Source of the DNA: Pelagibacteraceae bacterium AG-426-L23
GTDB lineage: Bacteria > Pseudomonadota > Alphaproteobacteria > Pelagibacterales > Pelagibacteraceae
Assembly (NCBI GenBank): GCA_003213115.1
Contig: QCNU01000001.1
Span: 186,001 to 250,000, forward strand
DNA length: 64,000 nt
Direction of reading: 5' to 3'
Below are positions 38,215-43,387 of the stretch, piece after piece. Position 1 is the stretch's first letter; every line of letters starts with the position of its first letter. The notes beneath the pieces were generated by a model. It saw only the letters and a program-made list of their open reading frames with translations. It made no database searches and was not told where the DNA came from. The translations under genes and the position numbers were made by a program.

Positions 38215-38721
38215 ATGAAAAAAAAAGATAGTTATGACTATAAAGAGCTAATAGATTGCGGGAAAGGTTTAATATTTGGCGAGGGAAATGCAAAATTACC
38301 TCTTCCACCAATGTTGATGTTCGATAGAATAACAAAAATTCAAGAAAATAGCGGCATATATAAAAAAGGATTTATAAAAGCAGAACTAGACATAAAAGAC
38401 GATCTGTGGTTCTTTAATTGTCACTTTCAGGATGATCCTGTCATGCCTGGATGTTTAGGATTAGATGCTATGTGGCAATTAGTAGGATTTTATTTAGGAT
38501 GGATAGGAAATCCTGGTAAGGGTAGAGCGTTAGGAGTAAGTGCTGTTAAATTTACAGGTGAAGTATTAAAAAAAACTAAGATGGCAGTATACGAAATAGA
38601 TATGAAAAGAGTTCTTGTCAAAGAAGGAACAACAGTTGGATTAGCTAATGGAATATTAAAAGCTGATGGGAAAAAAATATATACAGCGGAAAACTTAAAG
38701 GTAGGATTGTTTAAATCATGA
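38215..38721 (+). CDS. fabA: 3-hydroxydecanoyl-ACP dehydratase/isomerase FabA
   Basis: Makes the cis-3 double bond for unsaturated fatty acids by the anaerobic route. Active-site His70 and Asp84 ([18 protein letters not shown]) are at the same numbers as in E. coli. The opening, with [18 protein letters not shown] near residue 22, is typical, so the start is well placed. No clear ribosome site precedes the ATG; an AGGTG is about 24 bases away, and the Fur-like box occupies the space between. The stop overlaps fabB. Confidence 0.97.
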
Positions 38722-39929
38722 AAAGAGTGGTGATATCAGGTATTGGAATAGTTTCTTGTCTTGGTAATAATCAGGACGAAGTATATAAATCACTTTTAAA
38801 CTCAAAGTCCGGAATTTCATTTTCGGAAGAATATAAAGAATATAATTTAAAAAGTAATGTGCATGGAAAACCAAATATTAAACTTGAAGATCATGTTGAT
38901 AGAAAGTTTATAAGATTTATGGGTCCTGGCTCTGCTTACAATTACGTATCTATGAATGAGGCGGTAAAAGACTCTGGGTTGGAAGAAAAAGATATAAGCA
39001 ATATTAACACCGGAATGATAATGGGTTCTGGAGGTCCTTCAATAGAGAATGTAATTTTAGCTGCTGATAAAACTAGAGCGAAAAGTCCAAAGAGGATGGG
39101 GCCCTTTGTTGTTCCTAGAACAATGTCGAGCACTGCTTCAGCAACGTTAGCCGTTCCATTTAAAATTAAAGGAGTTAATTATACAATTAGTTCTGCATGT
39201 GCAACTAGTGGGCATTGTATAGGTAATGCAATGGAATTAATTCAGCTTGGAAAACAAAAAATTGTTTTTGCAGGGGGAAGTGATGAAGTTCATTTCGCAA
39301 TGACGGCTATGTTTGATGCTATGACAGCGTTATCTTCAAAATATAATGACACTCCAGAAAAAGCCTCTAGACCATATGACAAAACAAGAGATGGTTTCGT
39401 AATATCTGGTGGTGGAGGTGTGGTGGTTTTAGAAGAATATGAACATGCAAAAGCAAGGGGTGCAAAAATTTATGCAGAGATCACTGGTTATGGAGCAACA
39501 TCAGATGGTTTTGATATGGTTGCGCCTTCTGGTGAGGGAGCTGTAAGATGCATGAAAATGGCATTAGGAATGGCAAAAAATAAAATTGATTACATAAATA
39601 CACATGGTACTTCAACTCCTGTTGGAGATATTACTGAATTAAAAGCCGTTGGAGAAGTCTTTAGTGAATACAAACCTAAAATTAGCTCAACAAAATCATT
39701 GGCAGGTCATTCACTTGGGGCAACTTCTGTTCATGAGGCTATTTACAGTTTAATTATGATGAAAAATAATTTCATTGCTGCTTCTGCAAATATAACTGAT
39801 ATGGATGAGGAAGCGAAAAAATATCCAATAGTAACAAAAGTTGAAAAAGATGTAACTTTAAATTCAATAATGTCTAATAGTTTTGGTTTCGGTGGAACTA
39901 ATGCAACTTTAGTTTTTGAAAAGGTATAA
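38718..39929 (+). CDS. fabB: Beta-ketoacyl-ACP synthase I (FabB)
   Basis: A 403-residue condensing enzyme that elongates unsaturated acyl chains. The Cys161-His-His triad is present ([29 protein letters not shown]). Clear pairing with fabA: the two overlap by 4 bases (ATGA) and the pathway needs both. The KAS I type, as opposed to FabF, is supported by this linkage and the sequence SSACATS. Confidence 0.95.
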
Positions 39930-39931
39930 TC

Positions 39932-40717
39932 ATGGACCTGATGAAAGGAAAAAAAGGATTAATTATGGGCGTTGCAAATGAACGTTCCATAGCATGGGGT
40001 ATTTCTCAAAAACTTGCTGAAGCAGGGGCAGAGCTAGCGTTTACATACTTAGGAGATGCTTTAAAAAAAAGAGTTATTCCTTTAGCAGAAAAATTAAATT
40101 CAAAAATAACTTTTAGTTGTGACGTTGAAAAAAAGAATGAAGTTATTAAACTATTTGAAGATATAAAATCTCAATGGGGTGAGATAGACTTTGTTGTGCA
40201 CGCTGTAGCATTTTCCGATAAATCAGAATTGTCTGGTGAATATCTAAATACAACTAGAGAAAATTTTTTAAAAAGCATGCTAATCTCATGTTTTTCTTTT
40301 ACTGAAGTTTCAAAAGAAGCTTCAAAAATCATGAAAAAAGGTGGAAGTATGATAACTCTTACTTATGAATCGACAAAGGCTATTCCTAATTATAACGTTA
40401 TGGGTGTATGTAAATCAGCGCTTGAGGCAAGTGTAAAATACCTAGCTAGAGATTTAGGAGCTAAAGGAATAAGAGTAAATGCAATAAGTGCTGGCCCGAT
40501 AAAAACATTAGCTGCCTCAGCTATAGGGGATGCAAAATTTTTGTACAAATGGAATGAAAACCATTCCTTTTTAAAAAGAAATGTAGATATTCATGATGTA
40601 GGTAATTCTGCTTTATACTTACTAAGCGATCTTGCTGCTGGTGTCACAGGGGAAATTCATTATGTTGACGCTGGGTATAACAAAGTAGGAATGCCGGATC
40701 CTAAAAATATTTCTTAA
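39932..40717 (+). CDS. fabI: Enoyl-ACP reductase FabI (NADH)
   Basis: A 261-residue short-chain reductase completing each fatty-acid elongation cycle. The GVANERSIAWGIS cofactor segment and the catalytic Y-x6-K (YNVMGVCK) are present, with LRVNAISAGPI-type sequence (RVNAISAGPIKTLAAS) downstream. It starts 2 bases after fabB, completing the fabA-fabB-fabI cluster seen in many alphaproteobacteria, where irr is often the gene upstream of fabA. Confidence 0.96.
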   Translation: MDLMKGKKGLIMGVANERSIAWGISQKLAEAGAELAFTYLGDALKKRVIPLAEKLNSKITFSCDVEKKNEVIKLFEDIKSQWGEIDFVVHAVAFSDKSELSGEYLNTTRENFLKSMLISCFSFTEVSKEASKIMKKGGSMITLTYESTKAIPNYNVMGVCKSALEASVKYLARDLGAKGIRVNAISAGPIKTLAASAIGDAKFLYKWNENHSFLKRNVDIHDVGNSALYLLSDLAAGVTGEIHYVDAGYNKVGMPDPKNIS

Positions 40718-40795
40718 CTTGCAAAAATAACATTACTAAAATGTGTAAATAGTAAGTCTAAATATAACTAAAAAAAATTATAAATATCTTATCAA

Positions 40796-41311
40796 ATGAA
40801 AAAATTAAACGAAAAATTTAAAGAAAAATTAGATAACTTTTTCGACTGGGTCAAAGGAGCTGAATTGGTCGAACTTAAAACATGTAATGTTAGTGAGGAC
40901 CCAGTAAGACCGGAGTTAGATATTAAATTTAGGACTGAATATGGACGTAAAATTTATGGTGTTAAGTATAAAAAGGAAATTTGTGCAATTATGTGTTTTG
41001 GTTTTACAAATGAAATACCAAAAACAGTTGAAGAGCTAGATATGATGACTAAAGATGCTCACTTACAAAGTGCCTTGCGAGACCAAAAAGTGGGAAAAAT
41101 AGCTATTGCTTATACAGTTTGGTCTAAGAAAAAAGGGGGAGGAAAATTAATTGTAAAAGAAGTATTTAAAAAGATAAAAAAATCAAATCATCTTAATAGA
41201 TTGGTTACTTTATCTCCTCTAACCGAAATGGCTAGAAATTTTCATCTACATAATGGAGCCTTTGAGCTTCAAGTAAATGAAAAAACTCAAAATTTTGAAT
41301 ATAAAATCTAA
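40796..41311 (+). CDS. Small GNAT-like protein resembling the malonyl-CoA decarboxylase core
   Basis: A 171-residue protein with no signal peptide or membrane segment. Its second half resembles the C-terminal acyltransferase-fold domain of malonyl-CoA decarboxylase: a strand AIAYTVWSK, a glycine-rich turn GGGKLIVKEVF, then LVTLSPLTEM (compare the family's TLSPIPGF, with its catalytic Ser) and NFHLHNGAF (compare FHLxNGA, with its catalytic His). In the known enzymes these two motifs are far apart; here they are 9 residues apart, so it is a reduced form. It is 78 bases after fabI on the same strand. Function is inferred only; a general N-acetyltransferase is the alternative. Confidence 0.55.
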   Translation: MKKLNEKFKEKLDNFFDWVKGAELVELKTCNVSEDPVRPELDIKFRTEYGRKIYGVKYKKEICAIMCFGFTNEIPKTVEELDMMTKDAHLQSALRDQKVGKIAIAYTVWSKKKGGGKLIVKEVFKKIKKSNHLNRLVTLSPLTEMARNFHLHNGAFELQVNEKTQNFEYKI

Positions 41312-41314
41312 GAT

Positions 41315-43387
41315 TTAAGCCACTGCTTGTTTGATTGATAATTTAACTTTACCTCTATCAAAACCTACGACTTTGACTGAAACTTCGTCTCCTTCTTTGA
41401 CAACATCTCCTACTTTAGCAACTCTTTTAGCTGCAAGTTCTGAGATGTGAACCAAGCCATCCTGCTTACCTAAAAAGTTTACAAAAGCTCCAAATTCCAT
41501 AATCTTAACCACTTTACCTTTGTAAATTTTTCCCATCTCAGGTTTGGCGACCAAACTTTTAATAAACTCTAAAGCTTTATTTCTGGAAGCTTCGTCTGGT
41601 GCAGCAACAGTTACTTCTCCTGTATCTTTAACATCTACTTTTGCTCCAGAAGTTTCGACTATTTCTCTAATAGTTGCCCCTCCTTTGCCTATTACTGTTG
41701 CAATATCTTTTTTATCAACTTTTATAGTCTCCATTTTGGGAGTATGTTTTGAGAATTCTTTTCTTGATGATTTAATTGCTTTATTCATTTCAGTTAGAAT
41801 ATGCTCTCTTCCAGCCTTAGCTTGATTTAGAGCTTTTTCCATAATTTCAAAAGTAATGCCTGTAATTTTGATGTCCATTTGAAGAGATGTAATTCCATCT
41901 TTTGTTCCAGCTACTTTAAAATCCATATCTCCTAAATGATCCTCATCACCTAAGATATCTGAAAGCACTGAAAATTTTTCACCTTCTTTTATTAGCCCCA
42001 TCGCTATACCAGCAACTGGTTCTTTTATAGGTACGCCTGCATCCATTAAAGATAAAGAAGTTCCGCAAACTGTTGCCATTGAGGAAGAGCCATTGGACTC
42101 GGTAATTTCTGAAACAACTCTCAAAGTATAAGGAAAATTTTCCTTTAATGGTAATGAGGAATTTATCGCTCTCCAGGCCAATTTGCCATGTCCTATCTCT
42201 CTTCTGCCAGTTCCAATTCTACCACATTCTCCAACAGAAAAAGGAGGAAAATTATAATGTAACATAAAACTTGATCTTTGCATTCCTTCTAGGCTCTCTA
42301 ATCTTTGTTCATCATCGGTCATTCCTAGAGTTGTAACTACTAATGCCTGAGTTTCTCCTCTAGTAAATAAAGCAGAACCATGAGTCCTCGGCAGTACTCC
42401 AACTTCACATTTAATTTGTCTTACGTCAGCTAAACCTCTGCCATCAATTCTTTTCTTATCTTTTAATATTGCCGTTCTAACTATATCCTTTTCTAGCGAC
42501 TTTAATTGTGCCATAGCTTGACTTTCGGTCACCTTTTCATCTTCAGCAAACATTTCTTTAACTTGAGTTTCTATTTCAGAAATAGCTGTTGATCTCTTCT
42601 TTTTATCTATTTCTTTAAAAGCAGTTCTAAGATCACTTTCAAATTTATCAGTGATTTTCTTTTTAACATCTGAATGGTCAACTTCTTCCACTTCCCATTT
42701 AGGTTTGGCAGCTTTTTTAGCTAATTTTTCAATTGACTCGATTACTGGTACAAAGTTTTCGTGACCAAATTTTACAGCGTCTAACATTATTTTTTCTGAG
42801 AGACCTGAAGTTTCAGACTCAACCATTAATACTGCACCTTTAGTTCCTGCAACAACCAAATCTAATTCTGAGTCTTTTAATTCTTCAATAGATGGGTTTA
42901 ATAAAAATTTTCCATCTTTATATCCAACTCTACTAGCAGCAATAGGGCCTTGAAAAGGAAGTCCTGATATTGCTAAAGCAGCAGATGAGGCAATTATTGA
43001 TAAAATATCTGGTTGATTTTCACCATCATAAGATAGAACAGTTGGAAGAAGCTGAACTTCATTTAAAAAGCTTGAAGGAAATAGAGGCCTAATGGGTCTA
43101 TCTATAAGTCTTGAAATTAATGTTTCAGCTTCAGTAGGTCTTGCTTCTCTTTTAAAATAACCTCCAGGAATTTTTCCAGCTGCATAATATTTTTCTTGAT
43201 AATTTACAGATAAAGGAAAATAATCTTGCCCATCTTTCAATTTTTTTGCTCCAACCGCAGTTGCAATTACAACTGTTTCTCCACAAGTTGCAATAATAGC
43301 CCCGTCAGCCTGTCTAGCAATTCTTCCTGTTTCTAAAGTTATTTTTTTCCCATTTATTTTAATTTCTTCTTTATGAATTTTAAACAT
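41315..43387 (-). CDS. pnp: Polyribonucleotide nucleotidyltransferase
   Basis: PNPase, a 3'-5' phosphorolytic RNase of 690 residues with two RNase PH domains (about 1-230 and 300-540), KH ([14 protein letters not shown]) and S1 ([15 protein letters not shown]) domains at the C-terminus. Motifs such as [25 protein letters not shown] are unmistakable. Its start overlaps the rpsO stop (TAATG), the classical rpsO-pnp pair. It is convergent with the GNAT-like gene. Confidence 0.98.

Follow-up and report, generated by a model that had tools for sequence, protein, structure and literature searches.

The window, i.e., the whole stretch of 64,000 nucleotides analysed here, encodes downstream of fabI a protein of 171 aa that is identified by sequence comparison as a homologue of the malonyl-CoA decarboxylase (MCD) catalytic domain, reduced to a compact GNAT protein. 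This protein belongs to what is largely a phage gene family, and its gene and that of the full-length MCD exclude each other across 148 Pelagibacterales genomes. It is probably a phage-derived minimal malonyl-thioester decarboxylase that replaced the full-length MCD of the host. The relevant features of the window are as follows.

38215-38721, plus strand: fabA, upstream on the same strand
38718-39929, plus strand: fabB, upstream on the same strand
39932..40717, plus strand: fabI (enoyl-ACP reductase), upstream neighbour
40796..41311, plus strand: the gene under study, whose product of 171 aa is the compact MCD-like GNAT protein
40895..40918, plus strand: EDPVRPEL motif, residues 34-41
41126..41146, plus strand: KKKGGGK loop, residues 111-117, at the position of GNAT motif A
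41207..41218, plus strand: TLSP motif, residues 138-141, aligned to the catalytic Ser of MCD (Ser329 of human MCD, HsMCD)
41213-41215, plus strand: codon of Ser140, proposed to be catalytic
41240..41260, plus strand: FHLHNGA motif, residues 149-155, aligned to HsMCD His423 after removal of the insert
41243-41245, plus strand: codon of His150, proposed to be catalytic
41288..41302, plus strand: QNFEY motif, residues 165-169, with Tyr169 as the candidate equivalent of HsMCD Tyr456 (placed by eye)
41315..43387, minus strand: pnp, convergent downstream neighbour

The open reading frame starts 78 bases past the fabI stop at 40717, where the first-pass annotation had put it, and the TLSP and FHLHNGA motifs from which that annotation proceeded are indeed present, with nine residues between Ser140 and His150. 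The names FabA, KAS I (fabB) and PNPase come from NCBIfam models that exceed their cut-offs; the fabI product scores 418 bits with the best FabI model, compared to a cut-off of 446. The nearest relatives of the gene are found in Pelagibacterales contigs, with 96% identity.

A Pfam search started with the window protein identifies MCD (PF05292) as the top match, with an E-value of 0.0014 and 18.8 bits, a score that lies under the Pfam cut-off of 23.2 and counts against the MCD reading. Among 44 diverse members of the family, 37 match PF05292 at E ≤ 1 (the best at 2.6e-7) and 12 match Acetyltransf_1 at the same threshold (the best at 0.0002). No NCBIfam family is matched by the compact protein, and the PHROGs collection yields just two unnamed families (E-values of 0.007 and 0.17). 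Neither a phmmer search of the PDB with the window protein (best E-value 0.23, for an unrelated protein) nor a profile search of the PDB (best match 4ksa, an MCD, E-value 0.24) returns a significant match. The N-terminal domain of MCD, PF17408, is not matched within the 171 aa of the window protein; it is present in a SAR11 full-length MCD. A PF05292 search of the window's own genome produces no matches because this search misses the compact form.

An hhalign comparison of the profile of the 44 members with the catalytic domains of 25 alphaproteobacterial MCDs (29 could be cut out) gives an E-value of 5e-6 for the uncut MCD domains. In MCD, three or five inserted helices lie between strands beta5 and beta6 (excerpts of PMC3701320). 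When 66 residues were deleted from the MCD alignment, with the deleted segment slid along as a control, removal of the stretch between Ser and His changed the E-value to 1.2e-10 (1.3e-11 at the best nearby position), and the alignment then extends through the His motif. Deletions away from the insert gave E-values from 1e-4 to 2e-6 and partly overlapping ones gave intermediate values, and the gain peaks where the deleted segment coincides with the MCD insert. The DRR/GRK region is also aligned between MCD and the compact family by hhalign. The original description of a compact MCD-like GNAT protein devoid of the N-terminal domain and of the helical insert is supported by these alignments, by the Pfam matches and by the structure model described below.

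Human MCD uses Ser329 and His423 as its catalytic dyad, and Tyr456 holds the latter in place; the residues given for CurA are Thr355, His389 and Tyr419, with a Thr-His dyad, and canonical GNATs have a general-acid Tyr at the position of the MCD His (according to the accessible part of PMC3701320). In the compact family, Ser140, His150 and Tyr169 are invariant in all 194 aligned members, so that position 150 is occupied by an invariant His and not by the canonical GNAT Tyr. Retrieval of these members relied in part on the patterns AYTVWS[KR]K and TLSPLT[PDE]M, so that the count is biased for Ser, though not for His or Tyr; the same three residues are invariant in all 63 rows (56 different sequences) that were obtained without the TLSP pattern, i.e., rows that came from protein or profile searches and were cut out with a regular expression on other residues, and the one member missed by this expression also has Ser, His and Tyr, as read by eye. 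The candidate equivalence of Tyr169 and Tyr456 was likewise assigned by eye; the hhalign alignment ends before Tyr169. Lack of conservation of the Ser or His among homologues, which the first-pass annotation had named as evidence against its own reading, did not occur.

Asp35, Pro36, Arg38 and Pro39 of the EDPVRPEL motif are also invariant in all 194 members. The KKKGGGK loop, a putative CoA pyrophosphate loop, lies at the position of GNAT motif A, (Q/R)xxGx(G/A), as defined in the available text of PMC3701320; this motif may correspond to residues 111-116, with glycines 114 and 116 invariant and the first position occupied by Lys, Arg and Leu in 115, 61 and 13 of the 194 members, respectively. 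Phe288, which is strictly conserved among MCDs and is thought to face the leaving carboxylate (PMC3701320, in part), aligns to Ala105, a residue shared by all 194 members, which counts against the MCD reading. Because it lacks the N-terminal domain, the helical insert and Phe288 and scores under the Pfam cut-off, the protein is not filed as an MCD; the claim is that it would work like MCD and shares descent with the MCD catalytic domain. The compact gene is under strong purifying selection: of the 21 pairs that can be formed from the window gene and six relatives, 16 have a computable dS, and their dN/dS is 0.03-0.08.

A first structure model, made from 10 sequences, had a pLDDT of 76, and its eight best Foldseek matches were MCDs; the second model, made from 38 sequences, has a pLDDT of 90.2 and a pTM of 0.83 and adopts the GNAT fold. 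In the model, strand 135-141 runs directly into helix 144-152, the MCD helical insert being absent. The ten best Foldseek matches in the PDB are chains of the human and Cupriavidus MCDs, with E-values from 2e-6 to 1.4e-5, and the eleventh is an ordinary GNAT (E-value 4e-5). In VIA-align, three MCDs and the GNAT decarboxylases SxtA and GphF occupy the top five places; the leaders (SxtA, GphF, and the Agrobacterium and human MCDs) have Z values of 14.1 to 13.5, and MCDs together with other decarboxylases span 14.1 to 11.3. Serotonin N-acetyltransferase reaches a Z value of 13.2, and it and some ordinary GNATs are within 1 of the MCDs; altogether, 784 of the 999 aligned chains have Z ≥ 8, and the listed rows are GNAT proteins or MCDs. 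Because the VIA-align Z values overlap, the fold alone leaves MCD versus ordinary GNAT undecided; a better structural match to ordinary GNATs, which the first-pass annotation had named as refuting its reading, did not occur, as MCDs outrank ordinary GNATs with Foldseek, although with VIA-align some ordinary GNATs are tied with them within 1. A search of a viral structure library produced ten matches at E ≤ 0.001, with 8-17% identity, none of which names the family.

With respect to known systems, the compact protein shares with MCD (MLYCD, MatA; PF05292 with PF17408) the Ser in TLSP and the His in FHLxNGA, which follow each other in the same order within a similar part of the fold, but consists of 171 aa compared to about 430-440 aa for the MCDs in the mapped SAR11 loci, lacks both the N-terminal helical oligomerisation domain and the helical insert between Ser and His, and is carried by phages. 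The GNATL domain of CurA, GphF and SxtA have the GNAT fold in common with it and rank high in the structure comparison; however, these CurA-type decarboxylases are parts of polyketide synthase loading modules, show 11-12% identity to it and, in CurA, have Thr in place of Ser. A role in making acetyl thioesters might be shared with MadA/MadB (YiiD), but the activity of the latter resides in a hot-dog domain (PF09500) with an unrelated fold, whereas the compact protein is modelled as a GNAT and does not match PF09500; for the purified GNAT domain of MadA, the available part of PMC8666670 states that malonyl-ACP decarboxylase activity was not detected.

At least 575 viral stretches in IMG/VR encode a relative of the window protein (575 of 600 among the matches listed); these may include near-copies, and 80 were retained for study. 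The gene contexts differ widely among the retained viral contigs. Of ten viral neighbour proteins tested, eight have a PHROG match better than 1e-10 (SbcC, SbcD, DNA polymerase, exonuclease, peptidase, peptide deformylase, Nol-like carbamoyltransferase and radical SAM), one has a weak match and one has none. Among annotated phages, one of 50,697 records matches at E ≤ 0.01, namely Pelagibacter phage Mosig, where the gene encodes a hypothetical protein and is flanked by thyX on one side and a gp59-like gene on the other. When annotated phages are queried with the phage protein, three more matches appear at E-values of 5-6, i.e., at chance level. No match was found in plasmids. Outside Pelagibacterales, the gene is rare among cellular genomes (6 of the 385 genomes in the class sample, 3 of these from the window's own family). 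In one phage group, the compact gene lies inside a block of radical SAM, SGNH-like, Nol-like carbamoyltransferase, epimerase-like and aminotransferase-like genes (some of these names assigned by eye), which is perhaps a surface or DNA modification cluster. The Mom protein of phage Mu, a phage-encoded, GNAT-like DNA modification protein, was considered as a relative and rejected (hhalign E-value 0.12, probability 0.5%, with a single Mom sequence).

A quick, midpoint-rooted tree of the family was built from the 109 of 223 rows kept after removal of near-copies and short rows, with the window's genus assigned to L031-L110 from Pelagibacteraceae/Pelagibacter titles. The 43 Pelagibacteraceae rows form a single clade (SH-aLRT 99), next to which two phage copies branch as its nearest rows (support 88 and 83). 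Copies from the SAR11 family f2 and from another alphaproteobacterial family (two genomes) fall into the other half of the tree with 25 phage rows, in an order that the tree leaves unresolved. The host copies appear nested in the phage diversity, with moderate support and a midpoint root that count against this placement; it suggests that the compact gene may have entered Pelagibacterales from tailed phages. Two further observations concern individual host genomes. One genome (G501) carries two copies of the compact gene on contigs C1 and C2, one of them with an in-frame stop, and a genome of the window's genus (L030) encodes a 206-aa GNAT-like protein that matches the window protein at 8e-4 and was rejected as a family member, by eye being an ordinary GNAT.

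The genes next to the compact gene in the window flank it in 84 of 115 cellular loci, mostly from close relatives: the whole katG-to-infB block is present in 58 of the 115 and part of it in 26, whereas 30 loci, mostly from other lineages, have the gene alone and one has no match. Among the 68 carriers with a pnp region, the compact gene is located beside pnp in only 4, and elsewhere it occupies other positions, including those next to TRAP/CoA-transferase genes and isocitrate lyase. A general functional link to fab genes was therefore rejected, and the tie to fabA-fabB-fabI suggested in the first-pass annotation is not upheld as a general one; the position beside fabI is inherited in the window's lineage but does not amount to a partnership found throughout. 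Of 138 fetched regions, 125 have fabI within 2.5 kb of pnp, with a spacing from 0 to about 2300 bases, and given this variable spacing, the convergent junction looks like a place where insertion is tolerated. Among genomes of the same genus without the compact gene, four (G006, G457, G510 and G534) show 0 bases between the fabI match and the pnp match, which looks like the empty site, and four others have about 1.7 kb of other sequence at the junction. Across SAR11, the fabI-pnp junction (40718-41314 in the window) is a spot where different genes seem to insert. A separate matter is the start of fatty-acid synthesis in SAR11, for which 61 genomes show no canonical FabH over the cut-off (weaker matches in 27) and no MadA/MadB.

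The relationship with the full-length MCD was examined in 148 Pelagibacterales genomes, namely the window's own (84% completeness) and 147 with completeness of 90% or more. The compact gene is present in 73 of these and a full MCD over the cut-off in 44, with no genome encoding both; two weak MCD matches (G495 and G501) fall within the compact gene itself. The probability of zero overlap is 1.2e-17 if genomes are taken as independent, i.e., with kinship ignored. On a pnp tree of 137 of the 148 genomes (10 have no pnp match at the threshold and one short row was dropped), there are at least 22 changes for the compact gene and 18 for MCD, and among 12 independent pairs, MCD differs in the opposite direction to the compact gene in 5.8 on average, in the same direction never, and does not differ in 6.2. 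This kinship-aware test is only just significant (median p 0.031, range 0.016-0.5). All eight genomes from the deep-branching genera g5, g281 and g282 encode full MCD and lack the compact gene. KAS III, which is also patchy, shows no such exclusion, unlike MCD: its 17 carriers over the cut-off include 12 with the compact gene (7 in f2), 2 with MCD and 3 with neither. The mutual exclusion suggests that the compact protein and MCD do the same job in Pelagibacterales, although 31 of the 148 genomes have neither enzyme, which counts against this interpretation. The pnp matches in G521, G535, G558 and G564 each contain one in-frame TAG.

In SAR11, the full-length MCD gene belongs to a conserved locus that, in ten mapped cases, includes a family III CoA-transferase, a DctP-DctQ-DctM TRAP transporter, dusA and a TauE/SafE transporter (in G445, no TauE gene is seen within the stretch). 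The CoA-transferase is closest to CoA:oxalate and succinate-glutarate CoA-transferases, with scores under the cut-offs. This TRAP-MCD locus may serve the uptake and use of malonate or a related diacid; it resembles the rhizobial matPQMAB malonate locus, with the CoA-transferase in place of malonyl-CoA synthetase. An orthologue of the CoA-transferase is present in 81 of the 148 genomes; MCD accompanies it in 43 of these, the compact gene in 34 and neither enzyme in 4, and no genome has both. In 3 of the 4 with neither enzyme (G473, G543 and G562), the transferase is less than 2 kb from a contig start, so that assembly gaps may explain the missing enzyme. The distance to the CoA-transferase is at most 8 kb for MCD in 39 of the 43 genomes, and for the compact gene in 7 of the 34. 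In the four of these seven that were mapped (G469, G490, G496 and G498), the compact gene is enclosed by the TauE-family gene(s) and the conserved gene that comes next, i.e., it lies in the same stretch that elsewhere holds MCD; a small DUF2061 gene separates TauE from the compact gene in G496. However, those of the seven that are on the tree are close relatives and the co-location is probably one event, and 39 of the 73 carriers (28 from other Pelagibacteraceae genera, 3 from the window's genus and 8 from f2) lack the CoA-transferase, so that malonate supply via the TRAP locus cannot be general. In 12 of the 30 best-scoring loci, the compact gene follows another shared gene; in the only annotated one of these (G267), the shared gene encodes a RamB-like acetate regulator adjoining isocitrate lyase, the RamB model scoring below its cut-off, a context that likewise concerns acetyl-CoA.

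The Ser and His motifs and the missing insert make it plausible that the compact protein acts on malonyl-CoA or a related thioester. The bare GNAT domain would bind malonyl-CoA (or malonyl-ACP) in its groove, along strand beta4 and the GGG loop, the thioester carbonyl would be polarised by Ser140 and His150, and upon the departure of CO2, the enolate would be protonated to yield acetyl-CoA; polarisation by Ser and His, loss of CO2 and protonation of the enolate are the steps proposed for MCD in the accessible part of PMC3701320. In the hosts, the phage-derived enzyme would have taken over the job of the full-length MCD, including that in the TRAP transporter/family III CoA-transferase locus, where it would act on malonyl-CoA derived from malonate, or from a similar diacid, that the cell has imported. 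In phages, the enzyme would turn malonyl-CoA back into acetyl-CoA, so that carbon is diverted away from lipid synthesis and towards energy.

Several other explanations are compatible with parts of these data. The protein might be a malonyl-ACP decarboxylase or a CurA-like decarboxylase/acetyl-S-transferase that makes the acetyl-ACP primer in bacteria without FabH, which we consider rather unlikely. The location downstream of fabI in the window's lineage fits this role, and so do the genome surveys: the fabH model TIGR00747 has no match in the window genome (84% complete) and is over the cut-off in none of the 61 Pelagibacterales genomes searched (weaker matches in 27), the MadA/MadB hot-dog family PF09500 is found in 0 of 61, and the KAS III family PF08541 is over the cut-off in 17 of 148 (65 at E ≤ 0.001). 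Furthermore, both activities are described for the loading GNAT domain of CurA (PMC3701320, in part), and a malonyl-ACP decarboxylase permits the life of E. coli without FabH (PMC8666670, in part). However, of the 31 genomes with neither the compact gene nor MCD, 28 also lack KAS III over the cut-off, such that these genomes seem to start fatty-acid synthesis otherwise, and for this reason FabH replacement is kept as a rival only; in addition, the compact gene is mostly not near fab genes in the other lineages that were looked at, and the exclusion involves MCD, an enzyme of a CoA thioester. A scenario in which a phage-borne decarboxylase repeatedly displaced MCD across SAR11 and, where canonical FabH and Mad are missing, as in the window's lineage, perhaps also provided an acetyl-ACP primer beside fabA-fabB-fabI as a stand-alone enzyme in the manner of CurA seems doubtful to the same degree.

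That the protein is an ordinary GNAT acyltransferase, acetylating amines or proteins, with MCD-like motifs that arose by chance or through distant common descent, appears quite improbable. The GNAT fold, the Acetyltransf_1 matches of 12 of the 44 members and the GNATs with Z values within 1 of the MCDs agree with this possibility, but the invariant His at the position where canonical GNATs have the general-acid Tyr (excerpts of PMC3701320), the insert-removal test, the mutual exclusion with MCD and the shared locus argue against it. It is very improbable that the host copy is a remnant of phage retained for some purpose connected with phages, e.g., interference between them, and not for metabolism: in its favour, phage copies are nearest to the host clade in the tree and the host positions vary, but the strong purifying selection, the shared position in the window's lineage and the statistical exclusion of MCD are at odds with it. 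Accordingly weighed, a phage-derived minimal malonyl-thioester decarboxylase in place of the full-length MCD is the explanation that we favour.

Among the titles listed by searches of open-licence full texts, there was no report of a phage or SAR11 compact MCD-like gene. The available part of PMC12636525, a study of offshore SAR11 with KOfam function models, describes the full-length MCD as differentially distributed and under strong selection, with a pN/pS of 0.019. The compact form, being without an NCBIfam match, may well be missed by function counts of this kind. If the proposed function is correct, phages, at least one isolated SAR11 phage among them, carry an unrecognised gene for malonyl-CoA breakdown, and the family would represent an unusually small MCD-like enzyme, which would show what parts of MCD catalysis needs. 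In that case, very abundant bacteria of the sea would have swapped their own metabolic enzyme for a viral one.
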